This document shows positions 55,093 through 64,000 of a DNA stretch of 64,000 nt, piece after piece (within the stretch, counting starts at the first letter, position 1; every line of letters begins with the position of its first letter). The position numbers and the translations under genes were made by a program. The stretch is from Candidatus Schekmanbacteria bacterium (lineage in GTDB: Bacteria; Schekmanbacteria; GWA2-38-11; J061), in assembly GCA_016219965.1 (NCBI GenBank), contig JACRJM010000015.1:549963-613962 (forward strand), written 5' to 3'. The notes under the pieces were generated by a model. That model saw only the letters and a list, made by a program, of their open reading frames with translations. It ran no database searches and was not told where the DNA came from.

Positions 55093-55542
55093 ATGAAAGA
55101 AGATAATTTACTAACAAACAATGACATTGAAATTCTGAGGTGCTATTTCGCATCTCACCCTGAGATATGTACAGCTTATCTTTTTGGCTCGCAGGCCTCC
55201 GGCTCTTCAACAGAGCTTAGCGACATAGATATAGCCATTCTTTTAAAAGATGACACCACAAAGAATAATATTTTCAGGAACGAAATGCTTCTTGAAGCAG
55301 AGATTTCCCTTCTTCTTAAAAAAGAGAAAATAGATCTTTTAATCCTTAATGCTGCCCCTTTATATCTTACATACAATGTCATATCTCAGGGGAAAATAGT
55401 TTATGAGTCAGACCCTGTTGTAACAATGGATTTTGTTGAAATGGTAATAACTCAATATCTTGATTTTGCACCGACTCTTAAAGAGTATTTCAAGGAGTAT
55501 GACGCTTCTCTTAAGCAGGAGTATCTTGGTGGTAAATCCTGA
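55093..55542 (+). CDS. MNT-type nucleotidyltransferase antitoxin (second MNT/HEPN pair)
   Basis: A 149-residue protein with the full minimal nucleotidyltransferase motif FGSQASGSSTELSDIDIAIL (GSx10DxD, around 32-51) and a third Asp in EKIDLLILN. About 40 residues follow the domain. It is predicted to AMPylate the HEPN partner encoded immediately downstream with a 14-base overlap. It follows a repeat array and begins a short plus-strand accessory unit. Confidence 0.86.
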   Translation: MKEDNLLTNNDIEILRCYFASHPEICTAYLFGSQASGSSTELSDIDIAILLKDDTTKNNIFRNEMLLEAEISLLLKKEKIDLLILNAAPLYLTYNVISQGKIVYESDPVVTMDFVEMVITQYLDFAPTLKEYFKEYDASLKQEYLGGKS

Positions 55543-55948
55543 AAAAATCCGCGCAAAGATTTCAGTCATTGAGGAAAACCTTGGAAAGCTTGATGAGCTG
55601 AGACAGCTTCCAGCAGATGAATTTAAAAAGGACTTCAGAAATATTGAAGCCGCAAAACATCTTCTTCAGGTATCAATAGAGGCAATGACAGACATAGGCA
55701 CCCACATAATATCAAGGATGAGATTGAAGATTCCTGCAACAAACGCTGATGTGTTCAGAACTTTAAGCGAAAACGGTTACATCCCCGGTAATCATCTTGA
55801 TAAATTCATTCTAATGACAAGGTTCAGAAATAAAATAGTTCATTTTTATGTAAAAGTTACTCCTGATGAAATCTATAACATTCTGCAGGAAGACCTTCCG
55901 GATTTTAAACTTTTTATTTCTGATGTTCTTAAGAAGAACTTGCTCTGA
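55529..55948 (+). CDS. HepT-like HEPN-domain toxin (second MNT/HEPN pair)
   Basis: About 139 residues from GTG 55529. AGGAG at 55517-55521 lies 7 bases upstream and decides this start over more distant ATGs, whose upstream codons would lie wholly inside the MNT gene. The helical HEPN/DUF86 domain contains EAAKHLLQVSIEAMTDIGTHII and the RNase motif RNKIVHFY (RNxxxHxY). A toxin silenced by its MNT partner is the expected role. It resembles the long-branch HepT rather than the compact form at 57960. Confidence 0.85.
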   Translation: MVNPEKIRAKISVIEENLGKLDELRQLPADEFKKDFRNIEAAKHLLQVSIEAMTDIGTHIISRMRLKIPATNADVFRTLSENGYIPGNHLDKFILMTRFRNKIVHFYVKVTPDEIYNILQEDLPDFKLFISDVLKKNLL

Positions 55949-55993: not shown

Positions 55994-57349
55994 TCACTTC
56001 TTTTCAAATGTCGCACTTATGGTATGGTTTTTTGTGATGTTCGTAAAAGTATAAGTTTCACTTCCATCAGAAGAAACTCCATCTACTTTTACCTTTGATA
56101 TTTTGTAGCCTTTTTTCGGTGTAATGGTAAATGTTGTGCTCTCCCCGGAATTAACTTTCACCTGCCCTTTCGGTGCAATACTTCCTCCTGAGCCTGCAGA
56201 CGCAGTGATTGTAAAAGTCTGTGGAGTTGAGACCGATTCATAAGCTCCTAAATCAATGGCAGTGCCTACAACACGCTTTTGCCCATCCTTATCTGTTTTC
56301 AATGCATTTAAAACTGCTTTATCTTTTACTAATTTTTTAAATTGGCTTGAGTCAGGATTCAATCCTTTATCAATGGCAATCGAACCAGGGTTTAACCTGA
56401 AATCCGAGTCGGCAAAGTTAAGGCTTCCTGCACTGGGAAAAACATTGTTCTCCTTTGTAATGGCAAAAGTCCATTCGTTTTCAAGTTTTGTCGGGTCAAT
56501 ATAGTTGTTATAAACATTGCTATCTCCGCCAAAATAAACGTCTGATGAATTATCCGCGAAAATGTTGTTTATAAAAGTTCCTTTGCCGTAAATGCCGCCG
56601 CCATCAACATAAGCAGAATTGCCGTAGATTGTAGAGCTTGTAACAGTTACATTGCCAGAGCTATAAATACCGCCGCCAGCTCCCGGGATGTAGATGCTGG
56701 AGTAATCGAAGTTGTTAGCAGAGTTCCCGTAGATGATGGAGTTTGTAATAGTCACATTGCCACCAAAAATACCGCCGCCATGACCTCCGGCCGTATTTGC
56801 AGAAATGATGGAGTTCGTAACAGTCACAGAGCCGCCGCAAATTCCGCCGCCGCTCCCAAAAGCAGAATTTCCCGTGATTGCGGAATTTATGACAACTAAG
56901 CTGCCACGATAAATCCCATTTTTATCTCCGATTCTGATACCGCCGCCGCTGCCATAATTATCAGCGCTTCCATTTTTAACAGTAATTCTATCAATAGTTA
57001 AAACAGCATTTTTACTGTTCACATAATTGAAGACCTGATGCGTGTTATCTCCATCCAGGATAACGTCATTACATGTCAATCCGTCCCTGGCTTTTATGGT
57101 GATGTTGCGGGCTTCAGTGTCTGTAAACTTGAAAGTCCCGAATCCGTCATCTGTTGTTCTATAAGTCCCGGCATCTAAAATGATTGCGTCATCTGCTTTG
57201 TTCCCAGCAGCACTAAGAAGTGCCTGCCGGAACTGGCTTGTTGTGCTTACGTTGAAGGTTGCAGCTGATGTATAGCCGCAAAAGAATGAAGAAATACAAA
57301 GTATGAAAAGCAAAATAAAGACAATATTTTTTGCGTTTTTTGAATCCAT
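55994..57349 (-). CDS. Secreted right-handed beta-helix protein with C-terminal bacterial repeat domain
   Basis: About 451 residues. It has a signal peptide (NIVFILLFILCISSFFCGYTSA), then a beta-helix region (about 35-270) with repeated GGGI and VTxTNSII/YGNSA rungs (GSGGGI, GHGGGIFGG, GAGGGIYSS, DGGGIYGKG). A choice-of-anchor-Q-like segment, NPGSIAIDKG, lies near 325. The last 75 residues (TFTITASAGSGGSIAPKG and FTNITKNHTISATFEK) form a Listeria-Bacteroides-type or bacterial repeat domain found in cell-surface proteins. A surface adhesin or carbohydrate-active role is possible; no catalytic residues can be assigned. I use ATG 57349; ATG 57364 is also in frame. Confidence 0.82.
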   Translation of the reverse strand: MDSKNAKNIVFILLFILCISSFFCGYTSAATFNVSTTSQFRQALLSAAGNKADDAIILDAGTYRTTDDGFGTFKFTDTEARNITIKARDGLTCNDVILDGDNTHQVFNYVNSKNAVLTIDRITVKNGSADNYGSGGGIRIGDKNGIYRGSLVVINSAITGNSAFGSGGGICGGSVTVTNSIISANTAGGHGGGIFGGNVTITNSIIYGNSANNFDYSSIYIPGAGGGIYSSGNVTVTSSTIYGNSAYVDGGGIYGKGTFINNIFADNSSDVYFGGDSNVYNNYIDPTKLENEWTFAITKENNVFPSAGSLNFADSDFRLNPGSIAIDKGLNPDSSQFKKLVKDKAVLNALKTDKDGQKRVVGTAIDLGAYESVSTPQTFTITASAGSGGSIAPKGQVKVNSGESTTFTITPKKGYKISKVKVDGVSSDGSETYTFTNITKNHTISATFEKK

Positions 57350-57673
57350 CCCCAACCTCTCCACTAACGCAGTAAATCCATCTGAAATTAATCAAATCAC
57401 ATTGATAAAAGCATATAGTAAATTCCATTATTAATAACAAGGTACTTTAAGCTTTTTATGTTCATTCTTTTGCGTGCCCAAAAGAACGAACCAAGAAAAG
57501 GGGACCCTATGAAAGTAGTCTGGTATTAAGTAACCCAGTAAACAAAGTATCTAAGAATTCTCTTTATTAAAGCATTATTTAAGTTTTTATTTGATTATTC
57601 CAACTTTACACGGCTGAAAAATCAGATTAAAATATGTTTGATATATTATTAAGTATTTATCAGAGGTTTAAAT
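57350..57673. other. 324-base intergenic region with hairpin repeat copy 1
   Basis: A/T-rich divergent region between the beta-helix and third MNT genes. It contains the 48-base hairpin repeat (57460-57507) and must hold the promoters of both flanking genes. I see no other ORF or RNA gene. Confidence 0.5.
57460..57507. repeat. 48-bp hairpin repeat, copy 1
   Basis: Begins GTTCATTCTTTTGCGTGCCC and ends AAAAGGGGACCC. Its first half folds back on itself: TTCATTCTTTTG pairs with the following CAAAAGAACGAA with one mismatch. A second copy, differing at about three positions and in the same orientation, is at 58332-58379, on the other side of an MNT/HEPN pair. Similar CCAAGAAAAGGG(C/G)ACCC repeats occur in other bacterial genomes. 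Confidence 0.85.
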
Positions 57674-57967
57674 ATGAAACCACTTGAGCAAATAAAGCAG
57701 ATAATCCAACAACACAAAGCAGAACTAAAAACTAAATATTGTGTCCGTGAGATAGGTATCTTTGGTTCGTATGTGAGAGGGGAGCAAGCGGATAACAGCG
57801 ACATCGATATTCTCATAGAGCTTGACAGACCAATCGGTTTTGTTAAATTCATGAAGCTTGAAAAATATATTTCTGACCTCATTGGCATCAAAGTTGACCT
57901 TGTAACAAAAAAAGCTTTAAAGCCATACATAGGAAAGAGGATTCTGCAAGAGGTACAGTATGTCTGA
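57674..57967 (+). CDS. MNT-type nucleotidyltransferase antitoxin (third MNT/HEPN pair)
   Basis: A 97-residue minimal nucleotidyltransferase. IGIFGSYVRGEQADNSDIDIL (around 31-51) gives the complete GSx10DxD motif, and IKVDLVTKK supplies the third Asp. It is smaller than the other two MNT proteins in the window and of the classic MntA/COG1669 type. GAGG lies shortly upstream of the ATG. It overlaps the HEPN gene by 8 bases. The pair is bracketed by two copies of a 48-bp hairpin repeat. Confidence 0.9.
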   Translation: MKPLEQIKQIIQQHKAELKTKYCVREIGIFGSYVRGEQADNSDIDILIELDRPIGFVKFMKLEKYISDLIGIKVDLVTKKALKPYIGKRILQEVQYV

Positions 57968-58313
57968 AGAGAGACTTTTGCAGGATTATCTGAATGACAT
58001 AATCGAATCAATAACTGATATAAAAGATTTTACTCATGGATTAAGTTTTGAAGAATTTATTAAAGATAAGAAAACTGCAAAAGCTGTTGTTAGAAGCCTT
58101 GAGGTTATTGGAGAAGCAGTCAGTAAAATTCCTCAAAATATTTTAGATAATTACCCAAATATGTCCTGGCAGGAAATAAAAGGGATGAGGAATAGATTGA
58201 TTCATGAATATTTCGGCGTTGATCTTGAAATTGTCTGGCAGACAATGAAAGAGGACATAGAACCATTAGAATCTACAGCAAGAAAAATGTTTTCTGATTT
58301 GTATGGCGGTTGA
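57960..58313 (+). CDS. HepT-like HEPN toxin, DUF86 type (third MNT/HEPN pair)
   Basis: A 117-residue compact DUF86 protein. It opens RLLQDYLNDIIESITDI, contains VVRSLEVIGEAVSKIP, and carries the canonical RNRLIHEYFGVDLEIVW motif (around 84-100) with R, H and Y all in place. In the characterised HepT/MntA pair this RNase cleaves tRNA ends and is neutralised by AMPylation of the motif Tyr. The match to the type family is the best of the three HEPN proteins here. The hairpin repeat copy 2 begins 19 bases after the stop. Confidence 0.92.
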   Translation: MSEERLLQDYLNDIIESITDIKDFTHGLSFEEFIKDKKTAKAVVRSLEVIGEAVSKIPQNILDNYPNMSWQEIKGMRNRLIHEYFGVDLEIVWQTMKEDIEPLESTARKMFSDLYGG

Positions 58314-58425: not shown

Positions 58426-59505
58426 TTATTTTGAAATCCCATGAATAACATCTGCTTTAATTGCCATTTTTAATAAATATTCAGCAAAGTCCTTTCTCAT
58501 CCCTATGTTATAAAGAATTTTTTCGTCTAATTTGTCTAAATTAGAAGCGACTAATAAAGTTATAATTAAATCTATTAATTCTATTGATGAATTTCTTATC
58601 ATAAGTTTATCTTTCCTCAACAATTTAAACAATTTATCACCCCCATCTATTTCCCGTAATATAATGCGTTCAAGTAACAGAATATGGTTGATCCCAATTT
58701 TATGACATAGATTTTTTATCAACAAAATCTCGTCAGCATAATAATCACCAAATAAAAGAAGAGGCTTTTGTAAGCTTAATTTAATATTAAATCTTTCAAG
58801 GCGACATTCTATTAAACTATGAACACTATCAGTTGAAAAATACTTAAAAAGATTAATTGAGTTAATGTTATATTTAGGAGTTCTCTTTGATTTTTTAAAC
58901 TTCATGTTTACTTTAATTTTTGCTTCTTCTTTTCTAAGTGCTGAGAATTCATTGTCAGCAACTTCTAACAACGCAGAGATGGACAGTAATCTTCTAGTTA
59001 TATTGACTGGAAGATCTGGTTCTTTTTTATAATAAATATTATGAGAGACTGCATTCCACGCGTGTGCTAATACTGTACAAACCTGTATCTCTGCAACTAA
59101 ACCCCTATATCTATTCCCGTTAGGAAATAAGCAGTTTTCATTTATAGAAACTATATAATGGTAACCACGATACCCAAATCTTTCGTGGTCAGAAGGTTTT
59201 TGTATATTTTCAATTATCTTAAATTCTCTTTTTAATATTTTTAAAATCTTTTTATAATCTTTTTGATAATAATGAATTATGCGTAAACCTGAAAAGTCTT
59301 TTATGTTTTCTAGGGGAGTCTGATATTTTTTTCGTATAATTTTATTTTTTACACTTTCGAGAGATTTTGTCCTTTTTTCTATGTTATATATTTTTATATT
59401 TGCCTTAGATAAGAGTTCATTTAAACGCTTATGTAATTCATCAGTAAATTTGTCATAGCGTGGTTTAATCGATTTATATTTTCTGAGCGTCTGATTTATA
59501 TCCAT
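58426..59505 (-). CDS. RelA/SpoT-domain nucleotide pyrophosphokinase-like protein (small alarmone synthetase type)
   Basis: A 359-residue protein. Residues 20-190 match the RelA/SpoT synthetase domain: ENIKDFSGLRIIHYY, FGYRGYHYIVSIN and GLVAEIQVCTVLAHAWNAVSH, which carry the acidic and aromatic residues used for GTP and ATP. There is no HD hydrolase, TGS or ACT domain. About 160 helical residues follow that I do not recognise. Single-domain members include ppGpp synthetases, toxic (pp)pApp-type synthetases and tRNA-CCA pyrophosphorylating toxins, and which one applies here is open. Base composition is visibly more A/T-rich than the surrounding operons, and the gene stands alone between two repeat elements, suggesting acquisition. 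Confidence 0.82.
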   Translation of the reverse strand: MDINQTLRKYKSIKPRYDKFTDELHKRLNELLSKANIKIYNIEKRTKSLESVKNKIIRKKYQTPLENIKDFSGLRIIHYYQKDYKKILKILKREFKIIENIQKPSDHERFGYRGYHYIVSINENCLFPNGNRYRGLVAEIQVCTVLAHAWNAVSHNIYYKKEPDLPVNITRRLLSISALLEVADNEFSALRKEEAKIKVNMKFKKSKRTPKYNINSINLFKYFSTDSVHSLIECRLERFNIKLSLQKPLLLFGDYYADEILLIKNLCHKIGINHILLLERIILREIDGGDKLFKLLRKDKLMIRNSSIELIDLIITLLVASNLDKLDEKILYNIGMRKDFAEYLLKMAIKADVIHGISK

Positions 59506-59758: not shown

Positions 59759-60916
59759 CTAGCGGGTGGTGCGTTCCCAATAAGGCTTATAACTTCCCAC
59801 CATCAACTTCAAAATCCCAGTCCCCTGCGCGGCATTAGTGAATGCAAAATAGAATGGCATGTTAAAAATCGTGTGAAGTTTTTTATCGCCTCCGGAAAAT
59901 GCCAATCCAATGAGCGCGAGACAATAAAAAAAAACCTGTAATGCAAGAAGAGAGAAATAAAAATAGCCATCAAATGCAAGAAATGCGTTTGATATAAAGG
60001 CAGCAATCATGAACAGAAAAGAAAACCATCTTAGAATCTTGTGGGAAAAAAGCTGAAAGGCAATCGGGCTTTTAAAAGGTAAAAGCAGACCCAAATGATG
60101 AAGAACAACATTGAGAGAGCCGGCGGCAATCCTTTCCTTTCGCCTGTATTCATCGGAGAGCGAGCCTGAGCTCTTTTCAGATGCCATTGCTCTCTCATTA
60201 TAGATGCATCTGTAACCCTGCTCTATTATCGAAAGCGATATGGCAAGGTCATCCATGAAAATCCTGTCAGTCCTATGAAACGAAAAAGCCTCTTTTCTTA
60301 CCATATAAATCGCACCATCAAGTCCGGTGGTAGATAAAAGATTTGATTCGAGTTTCTTGACAAATGACTCATACTTCCAATATATCCCTTCAGCCATTGC
60401 AGTCTTTTCACCGCTCTGCATGATTACCTTTGCCCCGCCTGCGCATCCAACATTTTTATCTATGAAATGCTCTGCAAGCCTCCGCACAGCGCAGGGGGAA
60501 AACATCGCATTGGCATCAGTAAGCACAACAAGCTCTCCATGTGCAAGCTCCATGCACTTATTTATAACGCCAAGCTTTCCCCTTCTCTCTTTAAAATCAT
60601 AAACGCTCAATCTCTCATCACCGTTCGCTCTTGCAATCTCGACTGTGCGGTCATCTGAGCAGTCTGATGCGACTACAACATCGAGTTTTTCCCGCGGATA
60701 ATCCTGACCAAGTGCATTCTTTACTTTCATGGCAATACACTTTTCCTCATTCCTTGCGGGGATGATTATTGTGACTGTCGGAAGTGATGCATCGTCTATT
60801 ACATCATCATTTTTTTTGCCAGATACTGAAAGGCTCGTAAGCGCCGCAAGAATGAGCGGATACAAAATGTACGAATGGGCAATCAGAAGGAGAGATACCC
60901 AGAAAAGTATTGTCAT
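59759..60916 (-). CDS. Membrane GT2-family glycosyltransferase
   Basis: A 385-residue processive-type glycosyltransferase. It has an N-terminal membrane helix (ILFWVSLLLIAHSYILYPLIL) and a GT-A domain (about 45-270) opening TVTIIIPARNEEKCIAMKVKNA. VVASDCSDDRTVEIA and VVLTDANAMFSP (the DxD-equivalent) follow, then the acceptor-side MDDLAISLSIIEQGYRCIYNERA (ED-type motif), then RRKERIAAGSLN in place of QxxRW. Three or more C-terminal membrane helices end the protein. The donor sugar is unknown. It starts one base after the CDP-alcohol phosphotransferase stop and is the last gene of a five-gene operon. Confidence 0.88.
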   Translation of the reverse strand: MTILFWVSLLLIAHSYILYPLILAALTSLSVSGKKNDDVIDDASLPTVTIIIPARNEEKCIAMKVKNALGQDYPREKLDVVVASDCSDDRTVEIARANGDERLSVYDFKERRGKLGVINKCMELAHGELVVLTDANAMFSPCAVRRLAEHFIDKNVGCAGGAKVIMQSGEKTAMAEGIYWKYESFVKKLESNLLSTTGLDGAIYMVRKEAFSFHRTDRIFMDDLAISLSIIEQGYRCIYNERAMASEKSSGSLSDEYRRKERIAAGSLNVVLHHLGLLLPFKSPIAFQLFSHKILRWFSFLFMIAAFISNAFLAFDGYFYFSLLALQVFFYCLALIGLAFSGGDKKLHTIFNMPFYFAFTNAAQGTGILKLMVGSYKPYWERTTR

Positions 60917-60917
60917 A

Positions 60918-61763
60918 TTATTTGCCGCGGCAATTAATCCAATTGCTTACATAAGAGCGGCTCACAACTATAGCGAAGCGCCCTAAAAATGAAAGCGGCA
61001 GCATGAATGCATAGAAGAATACGAGTATTGCTCTTGTATCAGGATAAATATTTTCACCCAGATAAGGTCTAACCAGAAAATAATCAATGAAAGATGTGAC
61101 GAGCATTGCAACAAGAATACCTATCTCATTTATGGTTGCCCCGGTTGCAGGCCAGAGTCTCAAAAGCCATAAAAATAATTTTATTATTGCGGGTCTTTCC
61201 GGCACACCTTCCTGATTATAAAAATTGTTCTCATCGCCGGGAAATTGCAGCTTTACTTCTTTACCCTTGAATTTTCCGTAAATAGCCTGCTCTGCGGCAG
61301 TAAAAATCATCTTGTTGAAATGGTAGAAAGTAATAAAAAGTCCGCATGCGACTATAAGCCAGAATTTCCTGTGCTCTCTGTAAAGCCCAATTGAAAAGCC
61401 AACCATGGCAATGAAGCTCACCATATGGTGCCCCATTGCATCAAGGAATATCCCTTCGTCTGAAAACTGTTTTTTGTACCGTGCGACCTCACCGTCAACA
61501 CAGTCTGAAAGATACCAGAGCTGGATGAGTACGCTTCCCACAACAGCGCCTGCCATAGAAGCAGTCGCATAACAGACACCGCCAATAATCCCCAATATTA
61601 TCCCGAAAAGTGAAATCTGATTTGGCGTTATTGATGTGTTGACAAGATGCTTTGTTATATGCGCCGATACCCTGCGCATCACGAACCATGCATAGAACTG
61701 CTCTTCATCGCGGTTTTTCTGGTGGTTCCTGCGGATGAACTCTGCAGTGGGCTTTGTGCTCAC
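60918..61763 (-). CDS. CDP-alcohol phosphotransferase family membrane enzyme, fourth Asp replaced by His
   Basis: A 281-residue protein with about six membrane helices. The CDP-alcohol phosphotransferase motif is DCVDGEVARYKKQFSDEGIF followed by LDAMGHH (around 88-114). Read against D-x2-DG-x2-AR-x8-G-x3-D-x3-D, everything fits except the last Asp, normally the catalytic base, which is His. The family moves a phospho-alcohol from a CDP carrier to an acceptor, as in phosphatidylinositol phosphate and di-inositol phosphate synthesis. It overlaps the upstream dehydrogenase gene by 4 bases. With a nucleotidyltransferase and glycerol-1-phosphate dehydrogenase next door, a glycerol-phosphate-type donor is the natural guess. 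Confidence 0.85.
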   Translation of the reverse strand: MSTKPTAEFIRRNHQKNRDEEQFYAWFVMRRVSAHITKHLVNTSITPNQISLFGIILGIIGGVCYATASMAGAVVGSVLIQLWYLSDCVDGEVARYKKQFSDEGIFLDAMGHHMVSFIAMVGFSIGLYREHRKFWLIVACGLFITFYHFNKMIFTAAEQAIYGKFKGKEVKLQFPGDENNFYNQEGVPERPAIIKLFLWLLRLWPATGATINEIGILVAMLVTSFIDYFLVRPYLGENIYPDTRAILVFFYAFMLPLSFLGRFAIVVSRSYVSNWINCRGK

Positions 61764-62827
61764 TTCGTCCCCCAGACTTTTTTCACTGTCTTTGCCGCAA
61801 GCCTCTTATTGATTTTCAACTGTTCGAGTACTGTGAACCTGTCAGGTCTTGTGCGCGGTGCATAGCAGATTGCTTCAACCATCTGGTCTAAGGAAAGATT
61901 TATTTCCGATGGATGTGTAGGAAGCCCCGCCTCGCTGAAAAACGTCCTCATGGCATTGTAGTCATTCCCCTGAAGGCATGATGCAGCAAGAACGCCGAGC
62001 GCCACCTGCTCGCCGTGAAGCGCAGGGGAGCCATAGAGCGCATCAATGGCATGGCTTATCTTATGCTCGGAACCGCTGCATGGTCTGCTGTTTCCTGATA
62101 TCTCCATTGCAACACCGCTTAGAATCAATCCTTCCACAAGCCTTGTGATAAATTCTTCAGTGAATTTTATTTTTTCCTTCCGGTTATTGTAAAGCGTATA
62201 AACTGAGCTTGCCGCTGTGTGAGCGAGTATTGCCGCGTAGTCATCATATTTTTCACCTTTAAACTGCGCCGCAATTTGCCAGTCGCGCACTGCCGTTAGA
62301 TTTGATAACAGATCCCCCACTCCGGCCGCAGTGCTCCTGTGGGACGCCCTTTTTACAATATAGAGCGGCACTATGACTCCGATCGGTATTGATGCACCGA
62401 GGCTCATAGACTTCCCTTTGATGTCTTTTATTATGGCAACTGGCGAGCATATGCCGTCATGCGAGACCTGCGTGGGAATACTTATAAATGGTGTGTGGGT
62501 TTTTGAAGACGCATATTTTGCTATATCAAGGATTTTCCCACCGCCCACTCCCACTATTACATCAGGCTTTATCTCCTGTGCGATAGATTCGACGTCTTCG
62601 GTCGTAGAGATGGAGTTGTCATCAAAGACATTTATCTCCCCTTTATGTTTCTTGGACAGAGATTTGAAGAGTTCCTTGCTCAGAGTATTGTAGGTCTTTT
62701 TTCCGGAAACTATAAAAAACCTTTTGTAAGAGTTTTTTGTAAAAACATCTTCAAGCTCAGCTCGTAGTTCTTTAAACTCTGACGCAAATTTAAGATGGGA
62801 GGGTACGGAAATCTTTCTAAGATACAT
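61760..62827 (-). CDS. sn-Glycerol-1-phosphate dehydrogenase (EgsA/AraM-like)
   Basis: A 355-residue iron-containing-alcohol-dehydrogenase-fold enzyme of the G1P dehydrogenase family. The NAD(P)-binding region has VGVGGGKILDIAKYAS (around 90), then FISIPTQVSHDGICSPVA, close to archaeal EgsA. Zinc ligands are Asp in AGVGDLLSN, His in SGSEHKISHA and His in ALHGEQVALG. It reduces dihydroxyacetone phosphate to sn-glycerol-1-phosphate, the archaeal lipid stereoisomer; bacterial members include AraM. A 3-dehydroquinate-synthase-like relative is less likely. It overlaps the nucleotidyltransferase gene by 11 bases and the phosphotransferase gene by 4. Confidence 0.88.
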   Translation of the reverse strand: MYLRKISVPSHLKFASEFKELRAELEDVFTKNSYKRFFIVSGKKTYNTLSKELFKSLSKKHKGEINVFDDNSISTTEDVESIAQEIKPDVIVGVGGGKILDIAKYASSKTHTPFISIPTQVSHDGICSPVAIIKDIKGKSMSLGASIPIGVIVPLYIVKRASHRSTAAGVGDLLSNLTAVRDWQIAAQFKGEKYDDYAAILAHTAASSVYTLYNNRKEKIKFTEEFITRLVEGLILSGVAMEISGNSRPCSGSEHKISHAIDALYGSPALHGEQVALGVLAASCLQGNDYNAMRTFFSEAGLPTHPSEINLSLDQMVEAICYAPRTRPDRFTVLEQLKINKRLAAKTVKKVWGTK

Positions 62828-63584
62828 CCTCTGGAATTTCCTTAATTATTTTTAGTGCAATGTCCTTAGCCTTCTGCAAGTCCTTATGATCATCAACCTC
62901 AGTCCAGTGCATCCCCTTTGTTGAAACCGGAACAAGGCTTATCTGTCTGCATACCCTGTGAAGAGCGTCCTCATAGTATTTATCAGTCTCGCCATTTGAC
63001 AGCATCTTCGATGATTCCACAAAGAATTTATCTCTCCCCTCTCCCCTTAGATGCATTATCCCTATATACTCGCCGAGGCTTTTTGAGGGTTCAAGCCATT
63101 TCCCTATATCAACGATCTTTCCGTTGCCGTTTGTTATTACCTTCATCTCTTCCTGCGCAAGGGGTTTCACATCATCAACTACGAGAAACGAATCATCGTG
63201 TCCCGCTTCCAGTTGAACGACAGCGCGCTTTAGAATCTCAGGATCATAGAGGATGTCAGAGTTTAGAAGAAGCGTCTCATCATCAAAGAATTCTTTTGCA
63301 ATATAAACCGAGTAGAGGTTGTTCTTTGTATCATACTCCGGATTGGGAAGAAAAGTGAATGTGGCGCTGCTCTGGCCAAAGTAATTGAAGATAAAAGACT
63401 GAATCCTCTCTTTCTTATAACCCGTGACAAGGACTATCTGTTTAAAGCCATTGGCGATGAGCTCTTTTATTGAATAATAGAGCATAGGTGCAGCGCCCAC
63501 TTCTACAAGGCATTTCGGTTTGTCTTCAGTCAAAGGGAGCAGTCTTTTCCCCAAACCTGCGCAAAGTATTACAGCATTTTTCAT
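62817..63584 (-). CDS. Sugar/polyol-phosphate nucleotidyltransferase (LicC/IPCT-like)
   Basis: A 255-residue NTP-transferase. The signature AVILCAGLGKRLLPLTEDKP followed by KCLVEV (about 4-30) binds the nucleotide. IVLVTGYKKERI and LLNSDILYD (metal Asp) are standard, and WTEVDDHKDLQKA near the end resembles the phosphocholine and inositol-1-phosphate cytidylyltransferase branch. In this operon the likely reaction is activation of a phospho-alcohol to a CDP (or other NDP) derivative. Glycerol-1-phosphate from the next gene product is a candidate substrate by inference only. It overlaps the genes on both sides. Confidence 0.87.
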   Translation of the reverse strand: MKNAVILCAGLGKRLLPLTEDKPKCLVEVGAAPMLYYSIKELIANGFKQIVLVTGYKKERIQSFIFNYFGQSSATFTFLPNPEYDTKNNLYSVYIAKEFFDDETLLLNSDILYDPEILKRAVVQLEAGHDDSFLVVDDVKPLAQEEMKVITNGNGKIVDIGKWLEPSKSLGEYIGIMHLRGEGRDKFFVESSKMLSNGETDKYYEDALHRVCRQISLVPVSTKGMHWTEVDDHKDLQKAKDIALKIIKEIPEDVS

Positions 63585-64000
63585 TTACCTCTCCCTTTAA
63601 GCTTTACTGCAAGACCGCTTGTAAGCTTCCATTTCTTTGATGTCTGGCACGGTGTGTTGAAATATTTTATCCATGTGATCTTCCAGTCATCGTTGCCGGA
63701 GACTAAAGCGATATCCTTGCAAAGCTGTCCTACCGGAATCCCCACTGATTCAAGCGAATAGAGATGAAGTTTCGGCGAGCGGCATTTGCCTCCCGCTAAA
63801 CATGGCTGCGGATGGCAAAGCTGGCATGGACCCGCTCCAAAGGCATCCGTTACCGAGCCTTCGCCAAGAAGTTTTTCAATCTCTCTTTTGAGCTTAATCA
63901 TAATGACGCTGTGCCAGCCCGGTATCTGGTCACTCTTGATAAAATCCTTTGACTGCATGGCAATGAATATGTCCGCTTTGTCGAGCTTAGGTCTTATCTC
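63581..64000 (-). CDS. DUF2284-like metal-binding protein, 5' end beyond the window
   Basis: The frame is open to the window end (14 codons above the first internal ATG at 63958), so the gene is truncated here and 139 residues are visible. It carries GAGPCQLCHPQPCLAGGKCR and LYSLESVGIPVGQLCKDI, the Cys-rich signature I associate with DUF2284 predicted metal-binding proteins. Five Cys are present in the visible part. The family's usual N-terminal Cys cluster would lie outside. It overlaps the nucleotidyltransferase start by 4 bases and so belongs to the same operon. Its function is unknown; an iron-sulfur or redox role is a guess. Confidence 0.78.
   Translation of the reverse strand, partial: EIRPKLDKADIFIAMQSKDFIKSDQIPGWHSVIMIKLKREIEKLLGEGSVTDAFGAGPCQLCHPQPCLAGGKCRSPKLHLYSLESVGIPVGQLCKDIALVSGNDDWKITWIKYFNTPCQTSKKWKLTSGLAVKLKGRGK

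Follow-up and report, generated by a model that had tools for sequence, protein, structure and literature searches.

A candidate bacterial operon for placing the archaeal glycerol phosphate enantiomer on a cell-surface glycan

We analysed a 64,000-nucleotide stretch (hereafter the window) of contig JACRJM010000015.1 from a Candidatus Schekmanbacteria genome (GCA_016219965.1; G000). At its far end lies a minus-strand operon for a DUF2284 protein, a nucleotidyltransferase (NTase), an sn-glycerol-1-phosphate (G1P) dehydrogenase (G1PDH), a CDP-alcohol phosphotransferase (CDP-AP) homologue and a GT2 glycosyltransferase. The operon probably (about 0.55 by our estimate) makes the archaeal glycerol phosphate enantiomer and puts it on a cell-surface glycan, each catalytic step being read from homology and gene linkage. 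G1PDH would reduce dihydroxyacetone phosphate to G1P, and the NTase would use CTP to form CDP-glycerol with stereochemistry opposite to that of the TagD product, as its family, conserved catalytic residues and near-constant linkage to G1PDH suggest. At the cytoplasmic membrane, CDP-APs would hand phosphoglycerol on to an acceptor; the candidate enzymes are the window CDP-AP, which lacks the fourth signature aspartate (Asp4), and a second CDP-AP encoded beside an exporter, and TagF-like proteins may contribute. The acceptor glycan would be made or lengthened by glycosyltransferases, and export of the product, in the style of teichoic acid or O-antigen, would fall to a Wzm/Wzt ABC exporter. We favour a surface product because of the repeated linkage of the gene set to Wzm/Wzt exporters and polysaccharide clusters.

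All five frames are intact, with junctions of 4-, 11- and 4-base overlaps followed by a 1-base gap, as an earlier note on this DNA had described, and Pfam and NCBIfam searches agree with the families assigned there to the five proteins. The products had been called "surely used together". This stands for the NTase-G1PDH-CDP-AP core, which is kept in other phyla and, in the same order and with identities of 64, 66 and 59%, in G001, the nearest relative of the source genome and a member of the same family. It does not stand for DUF2284 and GT2, which are not adjacent to the core in G001, where no match to the window GT2 was found at E ≤ 1e-30. A strict five-gene unit was therefore rejected: DUF2284 looks peripheral and not conserved with the core, and the window GT2 looks like a lineage-specific accessory. 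G1PDH was absent from two genomes of the same order.

For a wider view, 80 named G1PDH loci (67 bacterial, 13 archaeal) were fetched with a profile from window-like sequences, a biased sample in which Streptomyces dominates. A linked NTase adjoins G1PDH in 60 of the 67 bacterial loci, comprising 47 of 47 from Streptomycetaceae and others from several other phyla; none of the 13 archaeal loci has one next to G1PDH. A search for the gene set across genomes, proposed earlier as a check, thus returned the core in G001 and the NTase-G1PDH linkage in distant phyla. The gene order is CDP-AP1, NTase, G1PDH, CDP-AP2, GT2, Wzm, Wzt in Streptomyces, and GT2, CDP-AP, NTase, G1PDH, Wzm, Wzt, CDP-AP in Thermoactinomycetaceae. 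A survey of Streptomyces synteny from 2026 (PMC13118837) lists a block of araM, CDP-AP, GT2, NTase, tagG, tagH and crtB, with mention of teichoic acid biosynthesis and no functional test.

The Wzm/Wzt (TagGH-type) exporter is encoded within the operon in Streptomyces and Thermoactinomycetaceae, adjacent to it in G001 and, in G000, on a contig other than that of the window. The neighbour of the core operon in G001 is GreA-Wzt-Wzm; a separate contig carries the GT2, second CDP-AP and sulfatases. Contig C4 of G000 brings together a GT2, the second CDP-AP, two sulfatase-family proteins, Wzm, Wzt and GreA, and also holds a 69% homologue of the G001 exporter permease. In the unrelated genome G139, a flippase-type gene precedes NTase-G1PDH within a Wzz/epimerase/DegT cluster; an Asp4-lacking CDP-AP belongs to a second cluster, which also encodes a heptosyltransferase, a sugar transferase and a protein of the O-antigen ligase type. 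TagB/TagF-family proteins were detected in 6 of 6 NTase-G1PDH genomes searched versus 3 of 14 control genomes, and the idea that CDP-AP is the sole possible user of CDP-glycerol was dropped given their presence in all six. In G000 and G001, the TagB/TagF-like proteins sit beside a second NTase paralog, which directly follows them in a glycosyltransferase cluster (L181:4158-8337 on contig C7 of G000; L183 on contig C45 of G001). This paralog and the TagB/TagF-like proteins are possibly a separate CDP-polyol system.

With the G1PDH model NF002022 the window dehydrogenase reaches 303.5 bits, compared with 97.3 bits for the glycerol dehydrogenase model. Since the NCBIfam equivalog cut-off of NF002022 is 413 bits, it was filed as a G1PDH homologue rather than an equivalog, and is still expected from its sequence to have G1PDH activity. 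When solved structures were searched with an alignment profile, the first match was 3ce9 (deposited as a glycerol dehydrogenase), followed by G1PDHs; three G1PDH sequences match at 1e-67 to 1e-74 (best 4e-74), and other glycerol dehydrogenases appear from 3e-29. A set of 12 archaeal G1PDHs has 62 invariant columns; the window enzyme carries the same residue at 47 of these, including D172, H255 and H271, which we take to be metal-ligand positions (Asp, His, His), and differs at the other 15. In the tree, a single clade with full support unites the archaeal G1PDHs; the window enzyme sits among the homologues from bacteria. Models, solved structures, tree and invariant columns thus support the earlier assignment, in that the enzyme groups with G1P dehydrogenases and not with glycerol dehydrogenases. 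The bacterial homologue AraM is a G1PDH (Guldan 2008, as cited in PMC7852524). In G020 (L027:1977-3800), a G1PDH without an NTase adjoins a gene for a NagD-like HAD phosphatase (by eye), which recalls araL-araM of Bacillus.

By sequence, the nearest solved relatives of the NTase are LicC, PntC and the Thermotoga maritima IPCT. A Foldseek search with its AlphaFold2 model (pLDDT 95.8) is led by LicC (1e-19) and PntC (TM 0.84), with IPCT close (TM about 0.8). These comparisons support a place nearest to enzymes that use CTP to activate small phosphorylated alcohols and phosphonates, not sugar-1-phosphate enzymes. None of the three outcomes that the earlier note gave as refuting turned up, the NTase preference being judged from these comparisons. 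The NCBIfam IPCT-DIPPS equivalog model gave only 81 and 52 bits against its 580. Residues R14, K24 and D110 are invariant across 18 G1PDH-linked NTases and are the counterparts of the active-site triad R16/K26/D112 of IMPCT (PMC12275187). On the NTase tree, the linked enzymes need 2 label changes versus 18 in shuffles, with weak support at deep nodes, and the second NTase of G000 groups with unlinked NTases. The G1PDH-linked NTases therefore appear to form nearly one lineage, with the paralog from the same genome outside it. From the gene linkage, we predict that the window enzyme is a CTP:sn-glycerol-1-phosphate cytidylyltransferase.

The window CDP-AP has a feature that the earlier note missed. 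The family signature has eight residues, D1xxD2GxxAR...GxxxD3xxxD4, which are described as absolutely conserved, with the fourth Asp as the probable catalytic base; its change to Asn nearly abolishes the activity of a PIP synthase (PMC4634129). The window protein keeps seven of them (D87, D90, G91, A94, R95, G104 and D108) and has His112 in place of D4. Its PF01066 match reaches 39.8 bits against a cut-off of 22. The AlphaFold2 model is all-helical and of moderate confidence (pLDDT 72.5), good near the active site and too weak elsewhere to place the acceptor. Its top fold match is AF2299, which is also the closest relative (4o6m, E 9.5e-14), followed by IPCT-DIPPS; AF2299 has Asp at the position aligned to H112. 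The Asp4 position is His in the enzymes of the window, G001, G139, G329 and one Chloroflexi homologue, and, among other G1PDH-linked homologues, Ala or His in Streptomyces and Arg in Thermoactinomycetaceae. In a scan of 386 genomes, the five best subfamily matches lack Asp4, and every lower match with a readable motif keeps it. Four of the five genomes with an Asp4-lacking CDP-AP carry G1PDH (Fisher p 3.8e-7 per genome; collapsing families, whose number is approximate, gives p 1.4e-5). The second CDP-AP shares the N-terminal motif YKxxDAxWTV with CDP-APs of Thermoactinomycetaceae and Fictibacillus. In the second CDP-APs of G000 (L180:5988-6800) and G001 (L182:2812-3627), Glu occupies the third signature Asp position and the fourth Asp is kept.

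In the Asp4-lacking CDP-APs, the role of base may fall to His or to another group; alternatively, the acceptor is ionised beforehand, or the protein is a partner without catalytic activity. Such an enzyme would need no general base if the acceptor, for example polyprenyl phosphate, were already an anion. It is tempting, if rather doubtful, to go further and propose a new type of membrane transferase that makes a polyprenyl-diphosphate-glycerol primer from CDP-(sn-1)-glycerol and thereby starts mirror-image glycerol-phosphate surface polymers across distant phyla.

Several observations weigh against a surface glycan made by this route. The window operon itself holds no exporter, and the TagB/TagF-like matches in G000 and G001 are only partial. 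The loci of Coprothermobacter, Melainabacteria and WOR-3 have NTase-G1PDH without an adjacent CDP-AP, and G139 carries a GGGPS. The G1PDH score lies under the equivalog cut-off, the NTase family also serves phosphocholine, inositol phosphate, phosphoglycerate and phosphonates, and its member CpgD made no product from glycerol-1-phosphate (PMC12275187). Since the window CDP-AP lacks the catalytic Asp, its activity is uncertain. In the open-access literature, we found neither an enzyme assay nor a functional study of this gene set, and no CTP:glycerol-1-phosphate cytidylyltransferase that has been characterised.

The main rival is a membrane-lipid head group, in which a CDP-AP would move glycerol-1-phosphate from CDP-glycerol to a glycolipid, diacylglycerol or ceramide and yield an unusual phosphoglycolipid by a logic like that of ceramide diphosphoglycerate. 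In its favour, CDP-APs have a central place in glycerophospholipid synthesis as membrane enzymes (PMC4634129), the NTase fold is shared by CpgD, which works in making a lipid head group (PMC12275187), and the GT2 could make a glycolipid acceptor. Against it stand the repeated linkage to Wzm/Wzt exporters and Wzz/Wzx/Wzy polysaccharide clusters and the fact that lipids are not substrates of AF2299 and DIPPS, the nearest CDP-APs with solved structures (PMC4634129); we regard this explanation as unlikely, if still worth serious attention. The earlier note had left the product as either a polar solute or a decoration of a lipid or polymer, and the exporter and polysaccharide linkage speaks for the surface option and against the solute. 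A compatible solute such as diglycerol phosphate or a glycerophospho-sugar, formed from CDP-glycerol and a small alcohol phosphate as IPCT/DIPPS form di-inositol phosphate, would fit the presence of IPCT/DIPPS among the nearest families of both NTase and CDP-AP, and AF2299 binds CDP-glycerol (PMC4634129). It is nevertheless highly improbable, given the occurrence of the gene set in all Streptomycetaceae loci fetched, the second CDP-AP and GT2s in the set and the lack of an NTase-CDP-AP fusion, in addition to that linkage.

G1PDH and the NTase might instead act on another substrate pair, with a different phosphorylated ketone or alcohol, so that the product is not CDP-glycerol. The sub-cut-off G1PDH score, the 15 differing columns and the varied substrates of NTase relatives leave room for this. 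The 47 retained columns with their likely metal ligands, the far better matches to solved G1PDHs than to typical glycerol dehydrogenases and the activity of AraM (Guldan 2008, cited as above) make it distinctly unlikely. Bacterial G1PDHs, those of Streptomyces included, have also been read as a sign of an archaeal-type ether lipid backbone (PMC6431249), in which G1P passes to GGGPS/PcrB as in archaea or Bacillus. This route was rejected and retains very little probability: PcrB/GGGPS (PF01884) is absent from G000-G003, in a search with positive controls, and from G039, G184, G247, G020 and G167, and the gene linked to G1PDH encodes an NTase instead of a prenyltransferase. Phosphonate tailoring was rejected as well, since no phosphoenolpyruvate mutase (PepM) match rises above cut-off in G000, where the only, sub-cut-off, match falls at PanB. 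GpsA is present in G000 and G001, and ordinary glycerol-3-phosphate lipids are therefore expected. With GGGPS and PepM absent and GpsA present, G1P in G000 is probably not used for ether lipids. In G001, a PEP-mutase-family match over the Pfam cut-off lies at C35:11548-12501; G000 has none such.

The logic of CDP-polyol, transferase and exporter is already known from teichoic acids and IPCT/DIPPS. The wall teichoic acid pathway of Bacillus subtilis (TagD, TagB/TagF, TagGH) likewise has a CDP-glycerol donor and an ABC-2 exporter of the Wzm/Wzt (TagGH) kind, as found in the related operons, and yields the sort of phosphoglycerol surface polymer predicted here. In contrast, the donor here would come from G1P, the opposite enantiomer, through a PF00483 cytidylyltransferase unrelated to the TagD type, and CDP-APs replace or accompany TagB/TagF. 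The di-myo-inositol phosphate pathway (inositol-phosphate synthase, IPCT, DIPPS) shares the NTase and CDP-AP folds and the route from polyol phosphate through CDP-polyol to a phosphodiester, whereas here G1PDH replaces the inositol synthase, NTase and CDP-AP are separate genes, Asp4 is lacking and there is an association with an exporter and GT2. In the ceramide diphosphoglycerate pathway of Caulobacter (PMC12275187), an IPCT-type cytidylyltransferase, CpgD, also activates a C3 phosphate; it differs in using phosphoglycerate and giving no product with glycerol-1-phosphate, in having no dehydrogenase and in its sphingolipid acceptor. AraM of Bacillus and the archaeal enzymes are homologous G1PDHs, but there G1P goes through PcrB or GGGPS to prenyl ethers, and here GGGPS is missing.

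The earlier note knew of no characterised pathway with this exact set, and our search of the open-access literature agrees as far as function goes. As a gene arrangement it is not new: NTase-G1PDH-CDP-AP-GT2 occurs in the same order in Streptomyces and is listed in PMC13118837. The Streptomyces block has the same core genes and differs in carrying the second CDP-AP and exporter in one operon; the passages available of that survey report conserved clusters, with no function and no loss of Asp4 mentioned. The TagR paper (PMC10269677) deals with a TagGH transporter that we could not match to this operon. Neither the G1P-linked cytidylyltransferase lineage nor the Asp4-lacking CDP-AP seems to have been described in the open-access literature searched.

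Features of the operon are collected in Table 1. Base 64000 of the window is the end of contig C15, and the last 141 bp are identical to an end of contig C4; the operon start therefore lies on C4. There, the N-terminal part of DUF2284 (L003:9934-10464) joins the window part in an uninterrupted frame of 269 codons plus stop. Since subtilase and TypA/BipA genes lie upstream of it on C4, DUF2284 is the apparent first gene and appears to head the operon. Purine-rich sequence precedes each of the three core genes, and no evident Shine-Dalgarno sequence is seen just upstream of the listed GT2 ATG in the window.

Table 1 Operon features at the window end
Feature	Position	Strand	Evidence
DUF2284 protein, C-terminal 139 codons	63581..64000	-	PF10050, 34.5 bits; frame open at window edge
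141-bp stretch common to the ends of contigs C15 and C4 (assembly overlap)	63860..64000	.	
NTase, predicted CTP:sn-glycerol-1-phosphate cytidylyltransferase (CDP-glycerol-forming)	62817..63584	-	PF00483
G1PDH, EgsA/AraM type	61760..62827	-	NF002022, 303.5 bits
CDP-AP homologue, subfamily without the fourth signature Asp	60918..61763	-	PF01066, 39.8 bits
GT2 glycosyltransferase	59759..60916	-	PF00535, 70.1 bits

A subtilase (S8) gene of the same kind is found near the operon in G000 (L003:8157-9854) and G001 (L025:5369-7321); the other neighbours differ. In the window, a minus-strand gene for a 359-residue RelA/SpoT-domain protein (58426-59505) with a PADLOC PDC-S33 match adjoins the operon. 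Beyond it are two plus-strand pairs of small nucleotidyltransferase-like/HEPN-like genes of the MNT/HEPN toxin-antitoxin type (55093-55948 and 57674-58313), the NTase of the second matching PADLOC PDC-S09 at 4e-33. Between the pairs, a minus-strand gene (55994-57364) encodes a secreted-looking protein whose glycine/asparagine-rich repeats look beta-helix-like by eye and whose C-terminal repeat resembles that of InlB.

The debate on the lipid divide has used the G1PDHs of bacteria, Streptomyces among them, as evidence for possible archaeal-type lipids in bacteria (PMC6431249). Most of the bacterial G1PDHs fetched here adjoin a cytidylyltransferase, and CDP-alcohol transferases and a glycan exporter are often present as well; this suggests another use of G1P. 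If the surface-glycan reading is true, the fetched Streptomyces and members of several other phyla would build the archaeal glycerol enantiomer into a component of their surface. The cytidylyltransferase would then have a specificity new to the open-access literature, and a CDP-AP subfamily would work without a residue thought essential.

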